Positions 3,977-63,972 of a stretch of DNA of 64,000 nucleotides are shown piece after piece. The notes under the pieces are model-generated. The model saw only the letters and a list, made by a program, of their open reading frames with translations, searched no databases and was not told the DNA's origin. A program made the translations under genes and the position numbers. The first letter of the stretch is position 1. The number at the start of each line of letters is the position of its first letter. Source of the DNA: a virus; the IMG/VR virus record IMGVR_UViG_3300046642_000296, positions 1-64,000 of that record, one strand, 5' to 3'.

Positions 3977-4181
3977 ACTGTTACGTGCGGCCGTCGCTGC
4001 ACGCATCGCGTACTGGAACGCAGTCGGTGCGCTTGAAAAGGCACTGTGCCCGGATGGCATCAGCGATCGGGCCAGCGACAAGCTGCACGACTTCCTGAAC
4101 GATCTGGCTGCAGCAGGAGAGCCGGAACAGGTAACGGAAGCTGAGCTCGCCCGTGTGATTGAAATCGCAGGGTGGGTATAG
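3963..4181 (+). CDS. Hypothetical helical protein, 72 aa
   Basis: The ATG lies inside the end of the preceding gene, with GAAGGA upstream. The sequence is almost entirely helical, acidic and Ala/Leu-rich, with no cysteine pairs or known motif. It sits in the run of short genes before ThyX. Function is unknown. Confidence 0.55.
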   Translation: MDNLELLRAAVAARIAYWNAVGALEKALCPDGISDRASDKLHDFLNDLAAAGEPEQVTEAELARVIEIAGWV

Positions 4182-23909: not shown

Positions 23910-26900
23910 TTACCCGAAGATGTTCACCCAGGGGTTCATCATCGGTGCGTGGAACACCTGCCCGACACCAAAGCTGTGTGTCAGACCACCGTCCATGAGC
24001 TTCGTGAAGAAGTTGTCCCCGAGTGGCGTGCCAACCGAGCCGAACATATGCGGGATCGGTACCGATGCAGCCAGCAGTGAGTGCACCGGATTGTTACGCA
24101 CCATCGACATGGCCACCTTCGCCGCACGGATCTTGAAGTTGTAGAACCACAGAAGGCCCATCGACTCCAGGTAACCACGGAACCGGCCGGGCAGCTTGTC
24201 GTAGTTCACGAACTCTTCGGTCACCCGGCTGAGCGCATACGCCGACGACTTGTTCTGACGCTTGGTCAGATCATCGTAGAGCAGCGCCTTGGCGATGAAG
24301 TCCCCATACTCAACCGACTTCTGCAAGCCCTTGAAGAGTGCTGTGTCCTTCGTCACCAGTGCATAGCGGCCAGCGGTCTGCAAAGCCTTCGGCAACTTGT
24401 CGACCTGAGCTTCCAGATACGACTGAACCTTGCCTGAAGTCAGCGCAATGTCATCTGAACCCACACGCGACGCATCCGAGATACCAGTGAATTCCCCTGC
24501 CTGGATCAACGGATGGATTGAGAGCCGCTTGAAGCTGTCCTCAATCGACTGCCACTGTGCACTCAGTTTGCGCGTGGCCACCGGATCTTCAGTTGCTGTG
24601 CGCATCTGTGCTTCCAGCTGGATCTGCTGCTGACGACCCTTCACATAGAAGTTGGTCTCCGCGATCTTGCGCGGTGCGCCCATGGCGATGTGCTTGATGG
24701 GCACACCCCGACCGACGAGCTGGAGCATGTTGCCGAGCATGTTGGTCACCGGCACCACCACCGACTTCACGACGATCAGCGTCTTGGCGTCGCCAATGAA
24801 GTTCTGCAAGGTCTTCTCCGCATTGGTGAAATACTGGTAGGCCTTGTTGCCAAACATGCCGATCATCACCCGCTTCATGTATTCCTGGGTCTCGGGCGAC
24901 CAGCGGGAGTTGCCGGTAAACACATCACCCACCGACGCATTACGGTAGCCCATCGCATCGTGCAGCATGTCGCGCGACACATAGAAATGGTCCCCGAACA
25001 CTGCCTTGATCCGCTGGCGGGTTTCCGGCGTCATCAGCTTGACTGCATCGGCAATCACCGGATCCTTCGCCAGCTCACGCGGATCCGACAGGTTCACGTA
25101 TTCCTTCTGGTTCGAGGCCGACTCCCTGATGTCTGCCTCGTAGCGGGCGTGCAGGGCATCGATCAGCGCATTGTTGAATTCCTGCGCCTTGGCTTCCTCA
25201 ACCTGCCGGCCACGCCACACCCCGATCATCTGGGCCAGGTTCTGCTCAGACACCGCACGCTGCGCCTGCTGCGGATCGATCGAGCGCTCGAAGGCCACCG
25301 GCACGCCCTTCTCGTCGAAGACGGGCATCAGCGGTTCCATGCCCGACTCTCCGCGTGCGAGGTTCAGTGCCGTACGGGCCACTTCAGCACGATCCGTAAT
25401 CCGGCCGGCAATCATCGACGAGTTGTTGAACCCGCTGCCGATGTCCACGCCGTTGACCGACTGGCGCACGTTCTGGAAGATGCCCTGATTAAAGAGCGTA
25501 CGTGAGGAGACCGGCGCAAAGTAGTAGCCCATGCGGCCCTTCAGCCCGTCCGCGGAGCTGCCCTTGTAGTCGGCCACCCGTACGTAGGAACGCTCAGTGA
25601 GCGCCTGGTAGTTCGCATCGTCGGCCACCATCAGGTGCACACCGGTTTTCTGCTGCTCCGGGATGTAGCCCTTGAAACCGTTGATGCGACCCCGCGGCGA
25701 CTGCTCAGCCTTGCGCTGCTCTTCCGCACGCTGGCCAACCAGATAGTCCGTCGTGAACTTCAGGCCGGCACTTTCCTGCTGAACCAGGGAAGCGAGCATG
25801 CCCTTTTCCGTCGGGCTCAGTTGCTCCAGCGCGTAGAGCGAGGTGAGATGGTCGACCATGCGGATGAAGTCCGCATCCCGCTTGCCCGTCTTCTTCGCCG
25901 ACTTTTCGAGGAAGAGCCGGCTGATCGCTTCAGCATTACGCAGCAGGTTCGTGCCGACCTTGCCCGTCATCTGGAACTTCGCCAGCTGCTGCATCTTCTT
26001 CTGGTACAGGTTCCAGTTTGCCGGATCTGCCTGCTGGACCTTGCCCTCCAGATCGTTGATCGCCTTGTCGAGCGTCTTCGCATCACCGAGCATGCCCTGG
26101 ATGTCTTCATGACTGAAGTGGCTGCGCAGTGCGGCAATGTCCGTGCGACCGAGTGCACGATGCAGCATCGACCACTCGCTGTCCTCAAGCGGGCGGCTGA
26201 ACTGGTCAGCGATGATGCCCGGCACATGCTCACGATAGTTCTGGCGATCCTGCGAGATCTCCGCACGCACGGCCTTCGTCATGTCGTAGACCGGCGCATT
26301 CTCATCGGTGCGGCCCACGAAGTCATAGACGAGATCGTGCAGGGGCTGCCAGGCGTTGGCCCGGTTCATCAGCGCCACCACCGACTCCGCCACCTTGTTG
26401 CCGTTCTTCTCGGTGGCCATGCGTGCCGAGACCTGCGCATACTTGGCCAGGTTCTTCGAGAGCGGCGAGGCGGCCGGATCGTCGATCACCTGCTGCATGC
26501 TGTCGATGATCTTATCGGTCACCCGTTCGACGCCCTGCACGACCGTTGCATTAAGCGAGTCCACTGCATCACCGGCCCAGGTCTGGCGCATGAACGACTC
26601 ACGGTCGTGGGCGACATCCTGGACGTGACGCATCAGGCTATCGATCGAATCACGCACATTGCTGCTCTTCGTGTCACCGGCCATCAGGTCCGACAGGCGG
26701 CCCATCAGGCCCATGCCCAGGTTCTCCAGCATCGCATCGAGCCGGCTCTTGGCCGCGGACTTCTCGCCCTTGGGCAGATCCATCTTCTGGAGCACCGAGC
26801 GGAAGTCATCGTTGACCATGGCCAGACCCAGGAACACCGGCATCAGCGACGAGCGGCCTGCCTTGTCGGTAGACGTGCCGAAGTCACCCATCACCATGTT

Positions 26901-29900
26901 GTACTTCTGCTGGGCCTGGTAGCGGTCATTAGGGTCATCGAGCTGCGGATCGGTCTTCATGAAGTGCTCGACCATCAGGTTCTTCGTGACGTGCTGGTAG
27001 AGCTCCTGTGCGCGGGCCATCGACGAAGGATCGATATGCGCCTGCGTGCCGAGGGCTGCCGCAATCAGCGAGAAGGTGCTCGCTTCCTGCATACTCATCG
27101 GAAAGCCATGGGCCTGCACCTGCAGTGCGAGTCCGGCAGCCTGAACCTTGGCAAAGTTCGCCTGTGCCTGGCCTGTGCTCGCCACATCGGCCGGCATCGG
27201 CTGACGGGAGAACGAATCGAGCAGGCCGGCGAAGGACTTGTTCAGCTCAACGAGCCGGGGATTGGTGCCATAGTTGCTGTTCTGGTACAGCACCGTGCTG
27301 CGCAGTGCCTGGGCAACCGACGGCTGCGTGCGCATCAGCACGGCCGAGTTGAACAGCAGGTTGCTGAACATGTCCGCACCCGGCGTAACCGGTACCTGCT
27401 TGCGGCCATACACCAGCTGCCGGATCGCCTTGAACACGTCCTTGGCCATCTGAACCAGGGAAGAGACAACCGTCTTCTTCCCGAGCTCCGCCAGATCCTT
27501 GCTGGCCAGCGCCCAGGCCATGAACTCGTTCAGTGCCGAAGCCTTACCTTCCGCCGAGCTGTCCATCACCGAGTGGATCGCCGCCACCGCATCAGCGTGA
27601 GCCTGCTGCGCGGCCTCCGACTCCTTCGACACATCGAGCTCGAGGAACTGGCCCATCATCGTTTCGATGCGGCCGATCGTATCCTTGACCACTGCAGCAT
27701 TCGCGCCCAGGTCACTGCCCTGGTAGAACGCATGCACGGTCTCAAACGTCGAGGCGTGGATGAGCTCGTGCGTGAGCGTTTCCGCAGACGGATTGATCAG
27801 GTAGATCCGCTGCGACTGCGGCAGCGTCAGACCCTTCACACCAGGGCCGAACGCTGCGGCCGTGTCACTCTGGTTGAAAGCGAACTTCGCCAGCTGCTCG
27901 GGCGTGCCCGAGATCACCTTGTATCCCTTGGCTCCCAGCGAACGCGGGATCTCTTTCAGAATAGCGGCCTGGTGTTCCGGGATGCCTGCCTGAGTGCGGA
28001 TCTTGTTGACGGCCGTAGTCGAGAGGACACGTACACCAGTGGATTTGTCCACGCGTCCGAGGGAATTGACCTGTTTGGCGATGTCAGCCGACTCGGCCGC
28101 CTGGGTATTAGCCGCAGCCGCTTCCGGCTGTTCAACAGGAACGCCCTGCTGTACCGGTTCCTCAGTTTTCGCTTTTGCACGCAGTTTCTCCAGTTCCTCG
28201 GCGTACAGGTTGGCGAGCTGCGCCGCCTTCTCCTCATCGGTGCCGCTGATCTGGATCTTGCCATCGACGACGTGCGGGGCGCCGGCTGCTGCCATCTGGT
28301 CGACCGACAGGTTCACCCGGTCCATCACATTATGGCGCGCTTCGATCTGCAGGGCTGATTCCTGCAGTGCCTTCGACGTGGCTTCCATCTTCGAGACGAT
28401 GTCTGCAACGTCCACATCCTTGGCCGAGCTGCCCAGACCAAAGAGCGACTTGGCCAGCTGGTCGTGCAGCTCGGGATTGCTGGCGATGAACTTCGCCAGA
28501 TCGAGCTTGCTGGAAACCGACTTCATGAAGCCGCCCCAGGCCTCGGACACTGCCTGCATCGGGTTGCCCCGCCAGGAGTCGAGCACTGCTTCATTGGCTG
28601 CCTGGCTCTGCTCGGTGATCGAATCGAGCGGCATGTTCATACCATCAAAGATCTTCAGCGTGCGGCGCACCCGCGGATCGTTGGCCAGGTTCTGCATCAT
28701 CTTGCCGTCGCCCATGCCGATGTTCAGGAACGGGATACCGGCGACACCAGCGTTGGCCGGACCATAGACGAAGGCTGTCGCCCGGAACGAGCCATCCAGA
28801 GCCCGACCGAAGTCAGTCGTATCGACACCACTGTTTTGCGAACCGGCAACGAAGAAGGACTGATCCTTCGTCTGAACCAGGGGATGGAACACAGCCAGGG
28901 ATTCCATCACCTTGTTCAGCTCATTGCTCGACAGGAACTCATCCCGGCCAAAGTCAGGGTTCGCCTTTTCCTTGGCCTGCAGTGCCGACTCCACACCCTG
29001 GAGGAACAGGTGCTGCATGAAGATCGACTGGGTTTGCGTGGCCTGGCGGATCAGGTTCGTACTCTTCTCCAGATCACCCACTACATCCTTGATGGCACCA
29101 CGCAGCGGATCGACGAACAGCGTGCGCATGTTCGCGGACATGTTCTTCAGTTCCTGCGGTGTGAAGGTGAACTTCGTGAAGCCCTTGCTGACCGTGCTGT
29201 TCTCACCTGCCGGCGTGTCGATCAGGTAGTGCTGACCCTTCTTCGAGCTGTAGACCGCCGTGCTGTCGATCAGGGCATTGATACGCTGGTTGAACTTCGC
29301 CCACTTTTCCTCGGCGAGCGGATCATCCGGAAAGAAGGCTTCAGCCGGCGTGACCGACTGGTCAGCCTCTTCAGCATCAGCCATGCGCTGCGCGGCCGCA
29401 CTCATGCGCTCGTAGATCGCATCGACCATGCCACCCACCATCTTGGCGGCAATGCCGTTGGCACCCGAGCCGTAGATCGTGATCGTCAGCGGGTTCTTGG
29501 CGATGCCCCGGCCGATTTCGAGCTTGCCATCCTTGATGTCCAGATCAGGCAGGAACATGTCCATCAGGTTCATCAGGTGGCGTTGCTGCTGCAGCACCTT
29601 GTCATTGCCCTGGCTCTTCAGGGACTGGTTCAGGTCGGCGAGGTGGCTGCGCAGCCGGTCGGTCGTGGCCTGATACAGGTCAGCCGCACCGTCAGGCGTC
29701 GAGCGGATTGCCGATGAGGTATTGGCTGCCGTGCCGCCGATCTCCAGCCCACCACGGCGCATGTTCGATACCCAGTCAGCCGTGAATGGCCCGGTCGAGA
29801 GCAGCGCCATGGCATTGACCGGACCATTGGTCATGCCATCGGCCTCGAGGTACTTGGTCGTGGTGAACTTCGCACGCTCCTCCGCCGACGCATTCTGGAA

Positions 29901-32900
29901 GCGGGCGTACTCGGTCAGTGCATGCAGAGCCAGAGGAGAGATATCCTGGCCGGCTGCCGTGAACGCATCCTCCACCGTCTTCGTGGCCAGCGGTGCCTCA
30001 TCCTTCAGCCACTTCTGGAAGTGCTCGACTGCCGGCGCAAAGACGCCATTGAGCAGGCCATCGAGCTTGCTGTGGATGTCGGCGTAGGCGAGGTTGTGCA
30101 CCTTGATGCCAAGCGCCTGGGCCAGACCCAGTTCGAATGCCTGCATGTGCTTCGCATCGGTCAGATCGAGCGTGGCACGCGTGGGCAGCATCACTTCGCG
30201 GATGAGCTTCGTCGACTGCGGGTTGTACTTGCCGAGCATCTGCATGCGGCCCACCCGGCTCATGTTGTAGCCGTAGTGGTTGGGCACATCTTCGGGCGCA
30301 ACACCCTGCTCCTGCGCCGTAGCCTCAATGGCTGCGTGCAGGTTCTGGAACTCCCGGTAAGCGGCCCGGATGGTCATGTTCTGACCGGCGAGTGATGCCT
30401 TGTGGTTGTCGTTGAGCGCTCGGCCTTCCAGATCCCCTGCCCCGAACCAGCGAAGCGCAACAGCCTCGGTCATGTCGTGATAGAGGCTGGCCATCGTCGG
30501 ATTCAGAAAGTGCGGCGTGTCCTGCTCGTTCTTCAGTGCCGAGAGCTGGTCGCCCGTGTTCTTCACGTACTCATTGCGCATCTGGCGACGGGCCACGTCC
30601 GGACGCTGGTCATCGAAATAGTAGGTCGGCGTCGACTTCGTGAGCACCGACTTTTCAATGAGGTCCGGGAACTTGCGGATCGCGTCTTCCTTGTCGAGCT
30701 TCACCGGCAGGATCCGGTTGATCGACTTGACGTGCTCACTCTCCACCGTGTCTTTCGTGGGATCGATCAGACCGCCGTTCTCGGACGTGTCCACCCAGAT
30801 CTTGTCCGTGTCGATGAGACCGTGCTCCTGCAGCGCACGCAGCACTTCGGCCGCCATCGACAGCGGGATACCTTCGGTGTAGCCGATCGGTGCGTCACGG
30901 TTTGCACGCACACCCCAGTACTGCTGGATCTTCGCAGCGAGTGAGTCGAGTGCTTCGGTCGTGCCGATGCTGCCCTTCAGGCGGGTAACGAGCGTGTCAT
31001 CGACAGCACCCACCGGAACGCCGGTGAGCTCCGACGCATGCTGCGCATCGAACACATTGCCAAGCTGACCGGAGCCAAGAAACCAGGTCATGCCGGCGAG
31101 CGCTGCACCCTGCAGCAGCTGCTCGTTATACTGCAGCCGGCCGTCGACGTTTTCCGTCAGGTTCAGCAGCTTGCCATCGACCCAGCGGTGAGCATGAGCG
31201 GCCTTGCCTTCCTCATTGAGGAAGCGCTCGCCCACACGCTTGTCCGTGAGGAACTTGTCCAGGTTGTCACGCAGCGTGCCGAGGATCCGGTCAATGTCAC
31301 GGAAGGCCGTGGCATAACCCTTCCATACATCCTTGCTGAACTCTTCCGGCATTGCTCGGATCGCCTGCTTCACCGAGTCGGCAATGGCCTGCACCGGCTC
31401 TTCATGAAGCACGACATTGCTCGGCGGCGTGTTCTCGTCAGCACCCCTGGCCGGTCGGAAAGCCTGGGTGAACTGGTTGCCACCGGCTTTCGGTTCGATC
31501 AGTTGCGGATAGGCCGCGGCCAGTCCCTGCTTCTGTTCAGCAACAGGCGCAGCCCCAACCTTCTCTGCAGGCTTTGCTTCGGGTTTGACTACCGGCGCAG
31601 CATCTGCCTTCACTGGCTCAGTTGTCTTGACCTCTGCCTTAACTTCAACCGGAGCCTGTTCAACCGGCTTGCTGGTAGGTGCCGGTGCAGCTTCCCTGGT
31701 GGCGACCTTCGGCTCAGCAGGCGTAACAGTCTGTTGCGGCGCCTGGCTCTTTGCCTGGACCGGCGTAGACTTTGCTGAACGGGTACCATCCTTGAATTCA
31801 CGGACGACATCATCCAGTGAACCATCAGCCAGCCGGGAATCCAGAGGAGTCTGTGTCAGATGCTCAACATTCAGTTCGGGAAAAGCCGTACTCAGATGGT
31901 TGTGGAGGTCCGTCAGGAACTTCGCCTCACTGGCTACTCGCCGGGCCAGAGCAACACTGGTCTTGCTCGTCGGATTGACGAACACACCTTCCTTCGACTT
32001 GCCGAAGCTGCGGTCCGCGTTGGCGGAGAGCGTCTCGTAATGGACCGTGCTTCGTACACCATCCTTGGCCGTAGCCAGATGCCCGTTGATCGCCGCGAGC
32101 TTGTTCTGCTGGCTCTGGGCAAACTTCTGGAGGTCAAGCAGCTGGCTGCGGGCACCATCGAGATCACCCGAACGGTACGCCGAGCGAATCGTCTGCGCAT
32201 GGCCCAGCGCCGACTTCTGGAACGGGTTCGCCGCATCTTCCACAGCCACATTCTTCGCCACCAGATCCTGCGGGCTTAGCGGCTTGTCACCGTTGGCCGT
32301 CAGTTCATCGAAGTGCGTCTGGGCCGTCTTGAGCAATGCGGCCGCCGCCAGCAGGGCACGACGCTGCGGATCATTGAGCCCGATCGACGTAGCGTGTTTG
32401 AGCGCGATCTGCACCGACGGCAGATCCAGCTTCTGCGGCGCCACTTCAGCGAGGTTCGCAATCGTCTTCGCATCCGCCAGACCTTCCGGCGTCTGGACGC
32501 GTTGTTCGGTCAGCGGTTTGATGATGTCGGCTGCCCGGTCCACCAGGGTCTTCGCCGCACGGTCAGCGCGAGCCATCCCCGGAGTCGATTCCACACCCTT
32601 GGCGAATGTCGCCACGTCATCAGCGAATGCACGGGCTTCATGCCCCTGTGGGAGGTCATCAAGGGCATGCGGATTGGCATCGGCAAAGCGGCCAATGTCA
32701 GCCTTCTCCTGCTCGAGCTGCGCCGCCACTGCAAGGCGATCGGCTTCCGGATGCTCCGTATCCTGCAGGTAGGCCTGCATGTTCTGGATCGCCGTGAAGC
32801 GGTTGGTCGCATCGCCGACGGCCTGCTGGGCAGCCGGATGCCACTGCGCCACCTGCTCCGGTGAGAGCTCGGTGATCTTCGACGCCTGATCGAGGTAATC

Positions 32901-34778
32901 GTTGGCGCGAGCCTTCGCTTCCGGCGACAGGTCCGGCGTGTCGTTGACCGACTGCCTGAGTGCTTCCGCCTGGCTCGGTGCCGTGGCCTGCATGTCCTGT
33001 GCAGCCTGGGCAACCGTTTCATCGGCCACCGGCGAATCCTGCTCGTTCTGCTTCATGACTGCATCGCCACGATTGGCGAAATAGTCGGTCACCTTCGAGA
33101 CATAGGGCTTCGCCGTCTGAACCAGGGAACCCAATGCCGAGCCTGCTGCGCCAGCGAGACCCGTACCGGTTTCAGCGACAGCTGAGCCCGCATCCTTCAG
33201 GGTCGAGAGACCCGCACGGATCTGGTCGATGGCCGGGCTATTACGCGCAGCATCCACACCGGCACCGATGCCTTTGGCGGCGAGCGTAGCAGCACCGAGC
33301 GGCGCACGGATGGCTGCACCCAGCGCCACACCAGGAGCTGCCACATGGCCGGCAGCCGCCGCACCATAGAGCGCACCCTGGCCGAACTGCTGACCTACGG
33401 AGTCGAGCAGATCCTGGGCCGGATTCGATCCCTGGCTCTCAGCGTAGTTCTGCGCTACCTGGCCTGTGGCGTTCTGCGTACCCTCTTCGAGCGCTTCCTT
33501 GCCCACGTTCTGCAAGGCCGTGCGCACACCACCGAGCTTGAACGGATGGGCTTCGAACGGTGCCACCAGTGCGCCAGTGAGCACGCCGGCCGGTGCCTGC
33601 CACTTCGCAGCCGTTGCGCCTTCATTGCCGGCGAGCGTGGCCCGTGCATCTTCCGGTGTCATGCCGCCCGCCACCAGCTTATTGAAAGCTGGCGACTGCT
33701 GGGCGAGCGTAGCCGGGTCCGTGTTCATCACATCAGCGGCGGTCTGCTGGTAAGCACCCGCCCCTTCCATCGCACCGATGGCCAGCGAACCAGGGACGTA
33801 CTTCTCACCTGCCTGCACCGCGGCGTCGAGCAGCCGGGATGCGGAGTTCGTGCCGGTCGCACGGGCAATATCGGCTGACATGCCAAGACCGAGCCGGGCA
33901 GTTTCCGGCAGGATCGCCTTGCCGGTCGCACCGATCACCTTGGCGACCGGTCCCGTTGCAAGCAGCGATCCGACAGCATTCGAGGCGCCTTCTCCAAACG
34001 CTGTCGGATCTGCCACTTGATGGCCCACCGAGTCAAGGACATTACGGCCTTCACGGCGCAATGTAGCCACCACGTCATGGCTGGGAGACTTGTAGCCCAG
34101 CGCAGCATCGAGCGCATTCAGTGAAGTTTCAACACTGCCCGGACTGGCAGCCTTCTCTTTCTCGAACTGGGCCTGGTTGTCCCGGCTCGTGAGCGAGTCG
34201 AGTGCGGCCACCTGGCTGGCACTGTCCTGGGCAGTCTGCGACTTGTAGCCTTGTTGCGTGTTTTGCCAGTCACCCAGGCTCTGCGCAATCGAGGCGCCGA
34301 GCTTCGGATCGATCACATGCGCGCCCAGTGCACCGAAGGAACCAAGGGTGGAAGCGAGACCGGTACCCAGCGAGTTGGCAGAGTCACCCAGGATCTGGCC
34401 CAGATCACGCGAGCGGGCATCCTGATTGCCGACATCACGCGTGGCCGAGACATAGCGGTCCAGCATTTTCTGGCCTTCATCACCGTACTTGGCGACGAAC
34501 GACACGGGGTCCATCGTGCGCAGGTCATGTTCAACCGGACTGGCTGATGCCAGACCCGCATTGCTTTGACGGCTGGCGGCCACAGCCAGCGGGTAATACG
34601 ACTGCTGCGTGAGACCGGAGACTTTCTCGACGATCGAGGCCTGCTTGTCAGGCGTGAGGAAGGAGAGTTGCTGCTGGATCCGGGCGGAAGTCGCATCGAG
34701 CGACTGCGGAGCGTTGACCGGTGCCGGTGGTGCAGCTGCATTCGCAGCAGCGTCCAGCAGGGAATTCAGGTCTGCCAT
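23910..34778 (-). CDS. Virion RNA polymerase (vRNAP, N4 gp50-like)
   Basis: This giant protein (3,622 residues; N4 vRNAP is about 3,500) is packaged in the capsid and injected to transcribe early genes. The central region holds the single-subunit RNA polymerase motifs: motif A LEADGMTNGP (D1647), motif B RxxxKx7YG (R1757, K1761, YG 1769-1770) and motif C KIFDGMNM (D2045). This places the polymerase roughly at residues 1050-2200. The N-terminal third is Ala/Gln-rich with helices and a hydrophobic Ala/Gly region near residues 450-520, perhaps for membrane passage. The C-terminal 1,400 residues are helical and unassigned. The frame is intact. The early promoters at 60.8 and 61.8 kb are its expected targets. 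Confidence 0.96.
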   Translation of the reverse strand: MADLNSLLDAAANAAAPPAPVNAPQSLDATSARIQQQLSFLTPDKQASIVEKVSGLTQQSYYPLAVAASRQSNAGLASASPVEHDLRTMDPVSFVAKYGDEGQKMLDRYVSATRDVGNQDARSRDLGQILGDSANSLGTGLASTLGSFGALGAHVIDPKLGASIAQSLGDWQNTQQGYKSQTAQDSASQVAALDSLTSRDNQAQFEKEKAASPGSVETSLNALDAALGYKSPSHDVVATLRREGRNVLDSVGHQVADPTAFGEGASNAVGSLLATGPVAKVIGATGKAILPETARLGLGMSADIARATGTNSASRLLDAAVQAGEKYVPGSLAIGAMEGAGAYQQTAADVMNTDPATLAQQSPAFNKLVAGGMTPEDARATLAGNEGATAAKWQAPAGVLTGALVAPFEAHPFKLGGVRTALQNVGKEALEEGTQNATGQVAQNYAESQGSNPAQDLLDSVGQQFGQGALYGAAAAGHVAAPGVALGAAIRAPLGAATLAAKGIGAGVDAARNSPAIDQIRAGLSTLKDAGSAVAETGTGLAGAAGSALGSLVQTAKPYVSKVTDYFANRGDAVMKQNEQDSPVADETVAQAAQDMQATAPSQAEALRQSVNDTPDLSPEAKARANDYLDQASKITELSPEQVAQWHPAAQQAVGDATNRFTAIQNMQAYLQDTEHPEADRLAVAAQLEQEKADIGRFADANPHALDDLPQGHEARAFADDVATFAKGVESTPGMARADRAAKTLVDRAADIIKPLTEQRVQTPEGLADAKTIANLAEVAPQKLDLPSVQIALKHATSIGLNDPQRRALLAAAALLKTAQTHFDELTANGDKPLSPQDLVAKNVAVEDAANPFQKSALGHAQTIRSAYRSGDLDGARSQLLDLQKFAQSQQNKLAAINGHLATAKDGVRSTVHYETLSANADRSFGKSKEGVFVNPTSKTSVALARRVASEAKFLTDLHNHLSTAFPELNVEHLTQTPLDSRLADGSLDDVVREFKDGTRSAKSTPVQAKSQAPQQTVTPAEPKVATREAAPAPTSKPVEQAPVEVKAEVKTTEPVKADAAPVVKPEAKPAEKVGAAPVAEQKQGLAAAYPQLIEPKAGGNQFTQAFRPARGADENTPPSNVVLHEEPVQAIADSVKQAIRAMPEEFSKDVWKGYATAFRDIDRILGTLRDNLDKFLTDKRVGERFLNEEGKAAHAHRWVDGKLLNLTENVDGRLQYNEQLLQGAALAGMTWFLGSGQLGNVFDAQHASELTGVPVGAVDDTLVTRLKGSIGTTEALDSLAAKIQQYWGVRANRDAPIGYTEGIPLSMAAEVLRALQEHGLIDTDKIWVDTSENGGLIDPTKDTVESEHVKSINRILPVKLDKEDAIRKFPDLIEKSVLTKSTPTYYFDDQRPDVARRQMRNEYVKNTGDQLSALKNEQDTPHFLNPTMASLYHDMTEAVALRWFGAGDLEGRALNDNHKASLAGQNMTIRAAYREFQNLHAAIEATAQEQGVAPEDVPNHYGYNMSRVGRMQMLGKYNPQSTKLIREVMLPTRATLDLTDAKHMQAFELGLAQALGIKVHNLAYADIHSKLDGLLNGVFAPAVEHFQKWLKDEAPLATKTVEDAFTAAGQDISPLALHALTEYARFQNASAEERAKFTTTKYLEADGMTNGPVNAMALLSTGPFTADWVSNMRRGGLEIGGTAANTSSAIRSTPDGAADLYQATTDRLRSHLADLNQSLKSQGNDKVLQQQRHLMNLMDMFLPDLDIKDGKLEIGRGIAKNPLTITIYGSGANGIAAKMVGGMVDAIYERMSAAAQRMADAEEADQSVTPAEAFFPDDPLAEEKWAKFNQRINALIDSTAVYSSKKGQHYLIDTPAGENSTVSKGFTKFTFTPQELKNMSANMRTLFVDPLRGAIKDVVGDLEKSTNLIRQATQTQSIFMQHLFLQGVESALQAKEKANPDFGRDEFLSSNELNKVMESLAVFHPLVQTKDQSFFVAGSQNSGVDTTDFGRALDGSFRATAFVYGPANAGVAGIPFLNIGMGDGKMMQNLANDPRVRRTLKIFDGMNMPLDSITEQSQAANEAVLDSWRGNPMQAVSEAWGGFMKSVSSKLDLAKFIASNPELHDQLAKSLFGLGSSAKDVDVADIVSKMEATSKALQESALQIEARHNVMDRVNLSVDQMAAAGAPHVVDGKIQISGTDEEKAAQLANLYAEELEKLRAKAKTEEPVQQGVPVEQPEAAAANTQAAESADIAKQVNSLGRVDKSTGVRVLSTTAVNKIRTQAGIPEHQAAILKEIPRSLGAKGYKVISGTPEQLAKFAFNQSDTAAAFGPGVKGLTLPQSQRIYLINPSAETLTHELIHASTFETVHAFYQGSDLGANAAVVKDTIGRIETMMGQFLELDVSKESEAAQQAHADAVAAIHSVMDSSAEGKASALNEFMAWALASKDLAELGKKTVVSSLVQMAKDVFKAIRQLVYGRKQVPVTPGADMFSNLLFNSAVLMRTQPSVAQALRSTVLYQNSNYGTNPRLVELNKSFAGLLDSFSRQPMPADVASTGQAQANFAKVQAAGLALQVQAHGFPMSMQEASTFSLIAAALGTQAHIDPSSMARAQELYQHVTKNLMVEHFMKTDPQLDDPNDRYQAQQKYNMVMGDFGTSTDKAGRSSLMPVFLGLAMVNDDFRSVLQKMDLPKGEKSAAKSRLDAMLENLGMGLMGRLSDLMAGDTKSSNVRDSIDSLMRHVQDVAHDRESFMRQTWAGDAVDSLNATVVQGVERVTDKIIDSMQQVIDDPAASPLSKNLAKYAQVSARMATEKNGNKVAESVVALMNRANAWQPLHDLVYDFVGRTDENAPVYDMTKAVRAEISQDRQNYREHVPGIIADQFSRPLEDSEWSMLHRALGRTDIAALRSHFSHEDIQGMLGDAKTLDKAINDLEGKVQQADPANWNLYQKKMQQLAKFQMTGKVGTNLLRNAEAISRLFLEKSAKKTGKRDADFIRMVDHLTSLYALEQLSPTEKGMLASLVQQESAGLKFTTDYLVGQRAEEQRKAEQSPRGRINGFKGYIPEQQKTGVHLMVADDANYQALTERSYVRVADYKGSSADGLKGRMGYYFAPVSSRTLFNQGIFQNVRQSVNGVDIGSGFNNSSMIAGRITDRAEVARTALNLARGESGMEPLMPVFDEKGVPVAFERSIDPQQAQRAVSEQNLAQMIGVWRGRQVEEAKAQEFNNALIDALHARYEADIRESASNQKEYVNLSDPRELAKDPVIADAVKLMTPETRQRIKAVFGDHFYVSRDMLHDAMGYRNASVGDVFTGNSRWSPETQEYMKRVMIGMFGNKAYQYFTNAEKTLQNFIGDAKTLIVVKSVVVPVTNMLGNMLQLVGRGVPIKHIAMGAPRKIAETNFYVKGRQQQIQLEAQMRTATEDPVATRKLSAQWQSIEDSFKRLSIHPLIQAGEFTGISDASRVGSDDIALTSGKVQSYLEAQVDKLPKALQTAGRYALVTKDTALFKGLQKSVEYGDFIAKALLYDDLTKRQNKSSAYALSRVTEEFVNYDKLPGRFRGYLESMGLLWFYNFKIRAAKVAMSMVRNNPVHSLLAASVPIPHMFGSVGTPLGDNFFTKLMDGGLTHSFGVGQVFHAPMMNPWVNIFG

Positions 34779-60120: not shown

Positions 60121-60133
60121 GTTGCTTCGCAAC
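60121..60133 (+). promoter_or_regulatory. Weak candidate for a vRNAP hairpin promoter
   Basis: GTTGC-TTC-GCAAC has the 5-bp stem and 3-nt loop geometry, and a G lies 11 nt from the loop centre (60138). The loop reads GAA on the template strand, not GGA, and the spacer is not AT-rich. It may be chance. Confidence 0.25.
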
Positions 60134-60374
60134 AGGAGGGAGGAAGCAGAACTATTCACTTCAAAAGAAGGCTGTGTTAACCTGGCCTGGCATCGGGTTT
60201 TTGCCAGCTTTTCCCCGATGTGGTTGAAGGGTTGACCGCGGACCTTTGCCTTCTCACCCCAGCAGAGAGTGGGGCTAATAACTTCTGCAGCTGAGGCCGT
60301 CGACCTCCTTCCCAGTTCCGGCTGGGCCTAGACGGTGACTCAACCCGGTGCCTGTATCGGTCAAGCAGGGAGCA

Positions 60375-60414
60375 GCCGAGAACATCTGACCCGCAGTGTT
60401 CTCGGCTTCTTTTT
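60375..60414 (+). terminator. Strong intrinsic terminator
   Basis: A perfect 10-bp stem (GCCGAGAACA and complement) with a 12-nt loop is followed by TTCTTTTT. It stops rightward transcription from the 59.8 kb promoter element before the early promoters. Confidence 0.93.
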
Positions 60415-60422
60415 ACCCGAGA

Positions 60423-60440
60423 CCTCAAAGTTATCTCTAG
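60423..60440 (-). promoter_or_regulatory. Middle-promoter-like element reading leftward
   Basis: On the minus strand it reads CTAGAGATAACTTTGAGG, a close match to the consensus, pointing toward the terminator and the late genes. Confidence 0.5.
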
Positions 60441-60584
60441 TCGGCCCGATTTATCCTGCAGACAATCCCGCAGTCTTCCTTCCCTGGTTCAAAGAATCAT
60501 GGTGCTCAGACGGTTAGTTGCTTATTCAGACTGACATGAGCCAGGGAAAAGAGATCGGAGCGGTTCACACACCGCCCTGCCCTA

Positions 60585-60602
60585 CCCCAAACTTATCCCT
60601 CG
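60585..60602 (-). promoter_or_regulatory. Middle-promoter-like element reading leftward
   Basis: On the minus strand ACGAGGGATAAGTTTGGGG contains the core with one change. It lies about 160 bp from the previous leftward copy. Confidence 0.5.
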
Positions 60603-60678
60603 TATAGAGAAAAATTCTCGCCAAATTTTTTGGCCGAGGGTTCGGGCATTTTTCATAGTTACTTCCCATTGCAGTATT

Positions 60679-60698
60679 GGGGCTCTCCGAGCCCCTGT
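60679..60698 (+). promoter_or_regulatory. Candidate vRNAP early promoter hairpin
   Basis: GGGGCTC-TCC-GAGCCCC is a 7-bp stem with a 3-nt loop that reads GGA on the template strand, as in N4 early promoters. The spacer is not AT-rich and position +1 by geometry is T (60698), so the match is weaker than at 60768. Confidence 0.5.
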
Positions 60699-60767
60699 AC
60701 ACAGTACACCCCCCCGGTATGTCCAATCCCTGTGGCATAGGGTACCCACCCTGTACACATCTACACC

Positions 60768-60785
60768 GGCGCTCCGCGCCTTATG
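60768..60785 (+). promoter_or_regulatory. vRNAP early promoter (N4 type)
   Basis: GGCGC-TCC-GCGCC is followed by TTAT and then GGATG. On the template strand this is CATCC-ATAA-GGCGC-GGA-GCGCC, the same layout as the N4 P2 promoter as I remember it: CATCC, four A/T, 5-bp stem, GGA loop. The loop centre (60774) is -11 relative to G60785. It lies 48 bp before the first early gene. Confidence 0.82.
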
Positions 60786-60832
60786 GATGATCACTCATGA
60801 TCGTCATCTCTTAACTTACTTGGAGTCTGACC

Positions 60833-61174
60833 ATGGCAAACCTTCGTGTAACGCTTGGTGCAGTGTTCGGTGCAGTCACTGGTGCTGCTGATGCTGTCAC
60901 CAATTCGTTGGGCGCAGCCAACATGGCAGTTGGCATGCTCAACCGTTCGGTCAATGACGCTGCACAGCGTCAGGTTGTCCGTTCGAACTACGACAACAAA
61001 GTCTTCGCTGCGACTGTGAAGCAGGAAAAGGCTAAGGAGTTGACGATGAGTCGACTCGAAATCAAGCAGTTCATTGCTCAGTCGGAGGATCACGCTGATC
61101 TATACGCGGCAGCCTTCGACGAACTCGATGCTGCTCCTGTATCTGCTGCATATCCGTCTGTTCGTGCTGCCTGA
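60833..61174 (+). CDS. Early protein, 113 aa
   Basis: First gene after the vRNAP promoter; TTGGAG precedes the ATG. The N-terminal half is Ala/Gly/Val-rich with a hydrophobic face (LGAVFGAVTGAADAVTNSLG), and the C-terminal half is helical and charged. Codon choice is similar to the other early genes. No family is recognised. As the first gene expressed after infection it may act on the host. Confidence 0.65.
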   Translation: MANLRVTLGAVFGAVTGAADAVTNSLGAANMAVGMLNRSVNDAAQRQVVRSNYDNKVFAATVKQEKAKELTMSRLEIKQFIAQSEDHADLYAAAFDELDAAPVSAAYPSVRAA

Positions 61175-61337
61175 TCGTATCTAAGCGCAGCCTAAACGCT
61201 GGCCACTTCGGTGGTCAGCAACACACATCGTAGATAGACATCCGTCTCACTCACACAGGACAGATTGGCAAGCTGGATTGAGTTGAACTCATGTTCACCA
61301 CAGTCTGCTTGTCCATCTGTCTTTTTTACATCAATCA

Positions 61338-61355
61338 TTAGACATATCTTTGAGG
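61338..61355 (+). promoter_or_regulatory. Putative middle promoter element (TTAGACATATCTTTGAGG)
   Basis: A copy that differs from the core by C for G. It ends eight bases before the ATG at 61363 and its GAGG can serve as ribosome binding site. It shares TTAGACATATCT with the copy at 61826. Confidence 0.6.
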
Positions 61356-61362
61356 TATACAC

Positions 61363-61686
61363 ATGGCACTCGCACAACTGAAAGTTGTTGAACCCGTCAG
61401 CCTGCTGGTAGAGGTTCAGCACCATGTTGAAAAGCTGCTCGAAACCCTGCGTGAGGCATTGCTTGAGGCACGTGATGCTACGGACGTGGCCTGGCTACGT
61501 GCTCGCTCCATCCGTGTACTGAACGCCATCTACGCGGACATTCCGGTGCTGCGTGATGAGTTCGTGCTGACTAAGCTCAATGCGCTGGAAGCCATTGAGC
61601 GTGAATCCATTGTCGGTTACGCACAGGCTGTCAGCCGCTCCAACAAATGGCGCAAAGCCTTGTGCAGCCGGTACTTCGGATCATGA
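61363..61686 (+). CDS. Early protein, 107 aa
   Basis: Helical and charged throughout, with VEVQHHVEKLLETLREALLE followed by ATDVAWLRARSIRVLNAIY. The C terminus is basic (SNKWRKALCSRYFG). It could bind nucleic acid or a host protein. No family is recognised. The stop overlaps the start of a 19-codon ORF. Confidence 0.62.
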   Translation: MALAQLKVVEPVSLLVEVQHHVEKLLETLREALLEARDATDVAWLRARSIRVLNAIYADIPVLRDEFVLTKLNALEAIERESIVGYAQAVSRSNKWRKALCSRYFGS

Positions 61687-61742
61687 GCATCGAAGAACTT
61701 CTGGACCAGCTTGAGCGGTTGATCAAACGCCAGGCTGGCTAA
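61683..61742 (+). CDS. Possible 19-codon peptide
   Basis: An ATG overlapping the previous stop (ATGA) opens a 19-codon frame ending RLIKRQAG. The peptide is an amphipathic helix. It lies just before the second early promoter. The overlap is suggestive, but the ORF may be a chance one. Confidence 0.3.
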   Translation: MSIEELLDQLERLIKRQAG

Positions 61743-61759
61743 CCATGCCTCACTGAATC

Positions 61760-61778
61760 AGCGGCTCCGCCGCTTTTG
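61760..61778 (+). promoter_or_regulatory. vRNAP early promoter (N4 type)
   Basis: AGCGGC-TCC-GCCGCT is followed by TTTT and GGTTGGG. The stem (5-6 bp), the GGA template loop, the AT-only spacer and G61778 exactly 11 nt from the loop centre all agree with N4 early promoters and with the site at 60768. It lies 74 bp before the 132-aa gene. Confidence 0.82.
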
Positions 61779-61825
61779 GTTGGGTGCTGACCTACGAGCA
61801 CCATTCTCTACTTCTCTCCCAGTAA

Positions 61826-61843
61826 TTAGACATATCTCTAAGG
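61826..61843 (+). promoter_or_regulatory. Putative middle promoter element (TTAGACATATCTCTAAGG)
   Basis: A divergent copy of the element (CTAAGG end) between the early promoter and the ATG at 61852, whose ribosome binding site is its AAGG. Early and middle control would then act on the same gene. Confidence 0.5.
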
Positions 61844-61851
61844 AAACTATC

Positions 61852-62250
61852 ATGGCAATCGATTTCGCAACCACGTTCGGCAGCAAGGGTGGCAGCAAGG
61901 CAGCGGCCAACGAAGCACCGCAGAAGGCCAAGTTCTGGCTGAACATCGGCTACGAAGCTGAAGATGCAGGCGCCGACGGCGGTCCGGCATTCGTCAGCCT
62001 GCCGATCGGCATTCCGCTGGACACGCAGGAAAAGCTCAAGACGAACTCCAGCAACAAGGAATTCGCGCAGTTGCAGGCAGCCCGCAACGACCTGCTCGAG
62101 CAGTTGATCGCCCATGCGAAGCAGGAACTGAAGCCGGGCGAGGACATGATCATCGGCTTGCAGATCCAGTTGCGCTGCGTGCGTGAAGAACAGGAAGTCA
62201 GCGTCGGCGCGGACAACAAGTTCGCTCGCAAGATCGCTTTTGCGGCGTAA
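61852..62250 (+). CDS. Early protein, 132 aa
   Basis: AAGGAAA precedes ATG 61852. The sequence has a Ser/Gly/Lys-rich start (TTFGSKGGSKAAANEAPQKA), then a compact alpha/beta part (KFWLNIGYEAEDAGADGGPA, then FVSLPIGIPLD) and a helix followed by MIIGLQIQLRCVREEQE. The pattern FWLNIGYE...FVSLPxGIPLD is, as far as I recall, recurrent in phage proteins of unknown function. Under both an early and a middle promoter element. Confidence 0.7.
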   Translation: MAIDFATTFGSKGGSKAAANEAPQKAKFWLNIGYEAEDAGADGGPAFVSLPIGIPLDTQEKLKTNSSNKEFAQLQAARNDLLEQLIAHAKQELKPGEDMIIGLQIQLRCVREEQEVSVGADNKFARKIAFAA

Positions 62251-62258
62251 ACCCCACA

Positions 62259-62276
62259 CGCGATATAACTTTGAGG
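62259..62276 (+). promoter_or_regulatory. Putative middle promoter element (CGCGATATAACTTTGAGG)
   Basis: The core is ATAACTTTGAGG. Its TTTGAGG end is also the left arm of the hairpin at 62270-62306. Confidence 0.5.
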
Positions 62277-62306
62277 AACCAGGCTACAATGCCTGCGTTC
62301 CTCAAA
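62270..62306 (+). terminator. Long hairpin, terminator-like
   Basis: TTTGAGGAAC-CAGGC and GCCTG-GTTCCTCAAA form a 15-bp stem with one bulged C and a 6-nt loop. The following sequence (TTTACTTCT) is only moderately T-rich. It separates the 132-aa gene from the SLOG gene. Confidence 0.6.
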
Positions 62307-62391
62307 TTTACTTCTAATGGATAGGCCACCAACCTAAATCCTAAGTTGGATAGCCACGTCCATTTTGACTAAGACAGCCTAAACACAAAAC

Positions 62392-62931
62392 GTGATCCAG
62401 AAACCACTCAAATATGCAGGCATTGGTCCTCGCCGGACTCCACTGGATGTCTGCGAACAGATAGTCAGTGTGAGCCGCCAGCTTTGTGAACAGGGATGGG
62501 TTGTGCGCTCTGGCCATGCCCAGGGAGCCGACCAGGCATGGGCCGTTGGCCACACTCCGGACAAGCGCGAGATCTACCTGCCATGGGCACGGTTCAACCT
62601 GCCTGGTGGCTTGCCGCAAGGATTCGCTGTCAGTCCAGTAACACCACAGCTTGAAGCTGTTGCACGCATCGCCCATCCAGCCTGGGACAGGCTAAACCAG
62701 GGCGGTCAGAAGCTCATGATGCGCAACGTCTCGATCATCCTCGGCCACGAGCTCGATGATCCCGTGCAGTTTGTCGCCTACTGGTCCGAGCAGCGCAAGG
62801 TCCAGGGCGGCACAGGCAACGCCGTCAATCTCGCATCACTCAATGGCATCCCGAGTTTCAACATCGCGTTCGAAGACGACCAGCTGGCCATGTCGGACTT
62901 CGTCGACTCGTTGCCACAGGGAGCTGCCTAG
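62392..62931 (+). CDS. DprA/SLOG-like nucleotide-binding protein
   Basis: A Rossmann-like SLOG protein: KYAGIGPRRTPLDV (first strand and loop), GWVVRSGHAQGADQAW (the GG-type phosphate-binding region), EIYLPWARFN, then LMMRNVSIILGHEL, VQFVAYW and GGTGNAVNLA followed by GIPSFNI. This order is the phage 'DprA-like' family. The fold begins immediately after the GTG start at 62392, so no upstream start fits. SLOG domains bind nucleotides or nucleotide-derived ligands, or DNA as in DprA. It lies in the early region, so a role in takeover or anti-defence is plausible. Confidence 0.8.
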   Translation: MIQKPLKYAGIGPRRTPLDVCEQIVSVSRQLCEQGWVVRSGHAQGADQAWAVGHTPDKREIYLPWARFNLPGGLPQGFAVSPVTPQLEAVARIAHPAWDRLNQGGQKLMMRNVSIILGHELDDPVQFVAYWSEQRKVQGGTGNAVNLASLNGIPSFNIAFEDDQLAMSDFVDSLPQGAA

Positions 62932-63956: not shown

Positions 63957-63972
63957 ACCAGGGGAAAGGGCA

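Follow-up and report, generated by a model that had tools for sequence, protein, structure and literature searches.

The locus analysed here raises the question of whether two short inverted repeats in the genome of an uncultured phage are early promoters read by a virion RNA polymerase (vRNAP), as in phage N4. In N4, three vRNAP start sites (P1 to P3) have been mapped in the leftmost 10% of the genome; the polymerase recognises -11A/G, -10G, -8G and +1C, and hairpin extrusion needs the closing base pair together with the 3' A and 5' G of the loop (PMC4496689). Hairpin promoters are an annotation already expected for the family, and the same kind has been predicted earlier in other N4-like phages. 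The window (the whole 64-kb stretch of DNA that was analysed) belongs to a virus record of 77,219 bp. Because the two contig ends share 127 identical bases, the assembly is circularly closed.

Judged by its genes, the contig is an N4-like phage of the Schitoviridae, with no close named phage in DNA comparison. It encodes the features by which the family is recognised, namely a giant vRNAP, a two-subunit RNAPII (matching PHROG 2166 and PHROG 2051) and an N4-type terminase, and the terminase region is about 69-74% identical in DNA to Schitoviridae phages. The vRNAP (3,622 aa; 23910..34778, minus strand) is the predicted reader of both hairpins. It matches PHROG 2206 "virion RNA polymerase" (E=0) with nearly its whole length aligned, and also the solved structures of N4 vRNAP (PDB, E=0). 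Its RNAP domain spans about residues 1080-2202. In alignment, the mini-vRNAP domain is 42% identical to that of N4, and the catalytic positions checked (424, 559, 666, 670, 678, 951) are all identical. Four of the five published N4 hairpin contacts (K114, R119, W129 and R904) are conserved; the fifth, D901, which touches -9C/-10G in N4, aligns with G.

The first hairpin, GGCGC-TCC-GCGCC, lies on the plus strand at 60768..60780 (stem 60768-60772/60776-60780, loop TCC 60773-60775) and reads GGCGC-GGA-GCGCC on the template strand. It is followed by a 4-nt A/T spacer, TTAT (60781..60784), the same as in N4 P1, and by a predicted +1 G (template C) at 60785. The second, (A)GCGGC-TCC-GCCGC(T), occupies 61760..61774 on the same strand, with a stem of 5-6 bp (61761-61765/61769-61773, plus a possible sixth pair, A-T, at 61760/61774) and the loop TCC at 61766-61768; its 4-nt spacer TTTT (61774..61777), the same as in N4 P2 and P3, leads to a predicted +1 G (template C) at 61778. 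Both starts are placed by N4 geometry. Each hairpin has a 3-nt loop, a stem of at least 5 bp and an inverted repeat centred at -11, and in each the template +1 C stands 11 nt from the loop centre. The template loop is GGA, i.e., 5'-G(A/G)A, with a C-G closing pair (-11G, -10G, -9C), and -8G is present in both stems (template GGCGC and GCGGC, read from -5 to -9). Both hairpins therefore carry every template base required in N4 (+1C, -8G, -9C, -10G and a purine at -11). The sequences and geometry given in the original prediction, from 60768 onward and with a start at 61778, proved exact.

Folding of the template strand as single-stranded DNA gave -5.8 kcal/mol for the P1-like and -6.8 kcal/mol for the P2-like hairpin, compared with -3.5 and -5.2 kcal/mol for N4 P1 and P2, and the P1-like hairpin had one dominant structure. 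An inverted repeat is expected to fold alike on both strands, and such folding is no proof of extrusion. Like N4 P1-P3 (NC_008720), the hairpins combine a stem of at least 5 bp, a GC-loop-GC core and a template GGA or GAA loop with a 4-nt A/T spacer (TTAT for P1, TTTT for P2) and a +1 G followed by G. They differ from N4 in the outer stem pairs, and the P1-like loop is GGA where N4 P1 has GAA. A published P1 oligonucleotide has the stem and loop of N4 P1 with the spacer AAAA (PMC12633501). The template segment CATCC-ATAA before the first hairpin had been likened to N4 P2. The CATCC is indeed shared with N4 P2 (CATCC-AAAA), but ATAA is that of N4 P1 (TGTCC-ATAA); the segment therefore combines the first transcribed bases of P2 with the spacer of P1. 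The suggestion of structure-specific recognition likewise holds in part: the hairpin geometry is shared with N4, but N4 also reads the loop and inner stem as sequence.

The positions of the hairpins agree with those of N4. Both occupy sites that correspond by synteny to those of N4 P1 and P2: as in N4, they precede gp1 and gp2 in the early region, on the early strand that is read rightward. The P1 start is 48 nt upstream of a gp1 homologue (113 aa; 60833..61174, plus strand; PHROG 5020, 2e-26; 30% identity to N4 gp1), and the P2 start is 74 nt upstream of a gp2 homologue (132 aa; 61852..62250, plus strand; PHROG 4099, 8e-37; 50% identity to N4 gp2). Unlike N4, an extra 107-aa ORF (61363..61686, plus strand) lies between the two; it had no family match and is absent at that position in N4 and Axy13. 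Comparison with N4 and Axy13, which have a C-rich tract before P1, places the physical left end of the genome probably near 60.69 kb (within 60679-60720), about 90-100 nt from P1. No sigma-70-like promoter was found in 60200-62400.

The whole 77,219-bp contig was scanned on both strands for a 5-bp stem, a TCC loop, four A/T and a G, a search that the original prediction had proposed. Exactly two matches were obtained, both at the named sites (loop starts 60773 and 61766); Markov-3 simulations gave a mean of 0.02 matches per genome, and none of 200 had two or more. Stricter forms with a GC-T(C/T)C-GC core gave 2 matches against 0.00-0.03 expected. Many equal hits inside coding regions had been named as the outcome that would speak against the prediction; there was no equal coding-region match, and with only two matches against the 0.02 expected the scan therefore does not refute it. 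Applied to N4, the same scan recovered P1 at 95 (GTTGC-TTC-GCAAC TTAT G), P2 at 564 (GAAGC-TCC-GCTTC TTTT G) and P3 at 4553 (GCTGC-TCC-GCAGC TTTT G), each at its place upstream of gp1, gp2 and gp15, respectively, along with a few weaker matches without the GC-loop-GC core. Two other hairpins were considered as promoters and rejected. One, at 60679-60695 (GGGGCTC-TCC-GAGCCCC), has a 7-bp stem but neither -8G nor an A/T spacer nor the +1 G. The other, at 60121-60133 (GTTGC-TTC-GCAAC), is an exact N4 P1 stem-loop but has the spacer AGGA; it lies beyond the inferred genome end, on the right-end side.

The closest relative found (G030) is 77% identical in the vRNAP domain. Its P1 stem is the same, and its P2 reads GCCGC-TCC-GCGGC TTTT GGTTGGG where the phage studied here has GCGGC-TCC-GCCGC TTTT GGTTGGG; the third stem pair is flipped from G-C to C-G, a compensatory change, and the flanks are unchanged. 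A wider survey took in the phage itself and 45 relatives, 46 genomes that all have a gp1 homologue. The rule was a 5-bp stem, a TNC loop, a 4-nt spacer including two or more A/T, and then G, within about 170 nt upstream of gp1. A hairpin was found in 33 of the 46 genomes; the opposite strand of these stretches gave 0/46, and random windows gave 54/6120. Many of the genomes are close to N4, so the 33 cannot be counted as independent cases; for 35 genomes both a hairpin and a vRNAP sequence were available, and these vRNAPs form 21 clusters at 60% identity. No such hairpin was found upstream of gp1 in seven surveyed genomes (G012, G024, G025, G042, G044, G047 and G048). Among 18 selected hairpins with a GC core, pairing holds in all 90 pair cells and both sides of the three outer pairs vary, which is an illustration, partly circular, and not independent proof, because the hairpins had been selected as paired.

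Many relatives obey the N4 promoter rule exactly. Upstream of gp1, others have the same geometry with TGC loops (G013, G016, G018, G034, G035 and G053), TAC loops (G015, G020, G037 and G039) or a TCT loop (G026), and the -11 purine of N4 is therefore not universal in the family. Across the family, the template loop centre at -11 is G, A, C or T (loops TCC, TTC, TGC and TAC). Coevolution of the loop base with vRNAP contacts (W129 and R904) looked striking in the raw table, but it was not significant in the 21 non-redundant clusters: W129 was present in 7/12 clusters with a purine at -11 versus 2/9 with a pyrimidine (p = 0.18), and -8G was found in 12/12 clusters with R904, whereas 3/9 without it had -8C (p = 0.06). 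The apparent coevolution also depends on an uncertain vRNAP alignment around residues 114-129. We lean somewhat toward the view that the Schitoviridae keep one constant geometry with diverged readable bases (any base at -11, and in some cases -8C where R904 was lost), which would mean a set of orthogonal vRNAP-promoter pairs.

Early hairpins with a stem of 4-5 nt and a 3-nt loop have been predicted from sequence in the Pseudomonas phages LUZ7, LIT1 and PEV2 (PMC3715699) and the Pectobacterium phages CB1, CB3 and CB4 (PMC6027278). By description these are like the hairpins reported here, with three promoters per genome versus two found here. For the N4-like roseophages RLP1 and RPP1, the authors could identify no promoter consensus sequences (PMC4193335); by extension from the 46 genomes surveyed here, relaxed loops may be the reason.

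GC-rich stems followed by T residues could also be short intrinsic terminators, a class defined by a stable GC stem running straight into a long T tract. The hairpin at 61760-61774 followed by TTT, one of the two, scored weakly as terminator-like, and the end of a short ORF is about 17 nt upstream. Against this, the stems are only 5-6 bp with 3-4 T, and the hairpin at 60768 is followed by TTAT and then GG. Terminators need no invariant TCC loop, GC inner stem or GG at a fixed distance, all of which are common to N4 P1-P3 and are found again in front of gp1 throughout the family. The region holds about as many terminator-like sites as chance would give (3, with 2.4 expected), and termination is a very unlikely function for these elements. 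Chance inverted repeats are scarcely conceivable: 5-bp stems are common in 58% GC DNA, but the two matches against an expectation of 0.02 both fall at syntenic promoter positions, and the compensatory change in the G030 orthologue and the conservation data contradict a chance origin.

The hairpins might instead be read by another factor, for example as a signal for replication or packaging close to the end of the genome, and merely resemble vRNAP promoters. The distance of P1 from the inferred left end would suit such a signal. The second hairpin, however, stands in front of gp2, 1 kb into the genome; promoters have been mapped at the corresponding N4 elements, and the strand and +1 context are conserved, so that this role is highly improbable. 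The promoter reading has points against it as well: the replacement of D901 by G, an N4-type P3 that was not found, a gp1 only 30% identical, and the weak terminator-like score of the P2-like hairpin. Nevertheless, the cognate vRNAP, the synteny, the required template bases and the family-wide recurrence support the original reading as N4-type vRNAP promoters, and the two hairpins are very probably, as predicted from sequence, the early promoters P1 and P2 of this N4-like phage.

Scans with other loops, other spacers and one stem mismatch gave no credible candidate for a third promoter, P3, which in N4 lies directly before the first RNAPII subunit gene. Barring a divergent promoter, transcription of the RNAPII genes here would have to come from P2. 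A relative with a 77.9-kb record (L007; vRNAP domain 54% identical) has up to five early-region GC-TCC-GC hairpins (at 4017, 4577, 5167, 5412 and 6505), and promoter number therefore varies in the lineage. The place of a further L007 hairpin is only 16 bp wide in the phage studied here (63957-63972).

The two RNAPII subunit genes are separated by 3.5 kb, versus 47 bp in N4, and between them, beyond the window end, lies a plasmid-type cassette (contig 67223-69102). It encodes a ParA ATPase (67223-67867) and a winged-helix replication-initiator-like (Rep-like) protein (68228-68839), and also holds a small gene, six 24-30-nt iteron-like repeats and a TTATCCACA DnaA box. ParA and Rep proteins were found in 3 of 35 other schitovirus records searched (G001, G015 and G030), and in G030 and G015 the Rep gene is followed by repeats and a DnaA box. 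A 75-kb circular plasmid of an A. baumannii clinical isolate, pRBH2-3 (NZ_CP110465.1), is a complete N4-like phage genome, with a 10.9-kb gene at the vRNAP position, an N4-gp56 family capsid protein and a terminase 57% identical to that of the phage studied here. It carries a ParA-small-HTH gene set, and its first early genes are preceded by hairpins that have TAG and TTG loops, a 4-nt spacer and GG. The ParA-Rep-iteron cassette and pRBH2-3 suggest a lineage of N4-like phage-plasmids. No description of N4-like phage-plasmids was found in the literature searched, which is no proof of absence.

Transcription from 60785 and 61778 is what we infer from N4. By analogy with the N4 pathway (PMC4496689), the vRNAP would be carried in the virion and ejected into the host with the left genome end. 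Supercoiling by host gyrase would extrude the short GC hairpins, and host SSB would melt the non-template copy. The vRNAP would bind the template GGA-loop hairpin and initiate at the C past the 4-nt spacer, at both sites, and this initiation would be resistant to rifampicin. The resulting mRNA would cover the genes for the gp1 and gp2 cofactors together with those further downstream, and transcription would also help to pull the genome in.

For this uncultured phage, sequence alone is enough to predict two early start sites and, with them, the probable left end and the order in which genes are expressed, and the N4 rules predict promoters even at 42% polymerase identity. The relaxed rule makes promoter finding in N4-like phages a simple scan. 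The survey also yields vRNAP-promoter pairs that could be tested, with loops not used by N4; if the family does hold orthogonal pairs, that of the present phage would be one of the N4-like kind.
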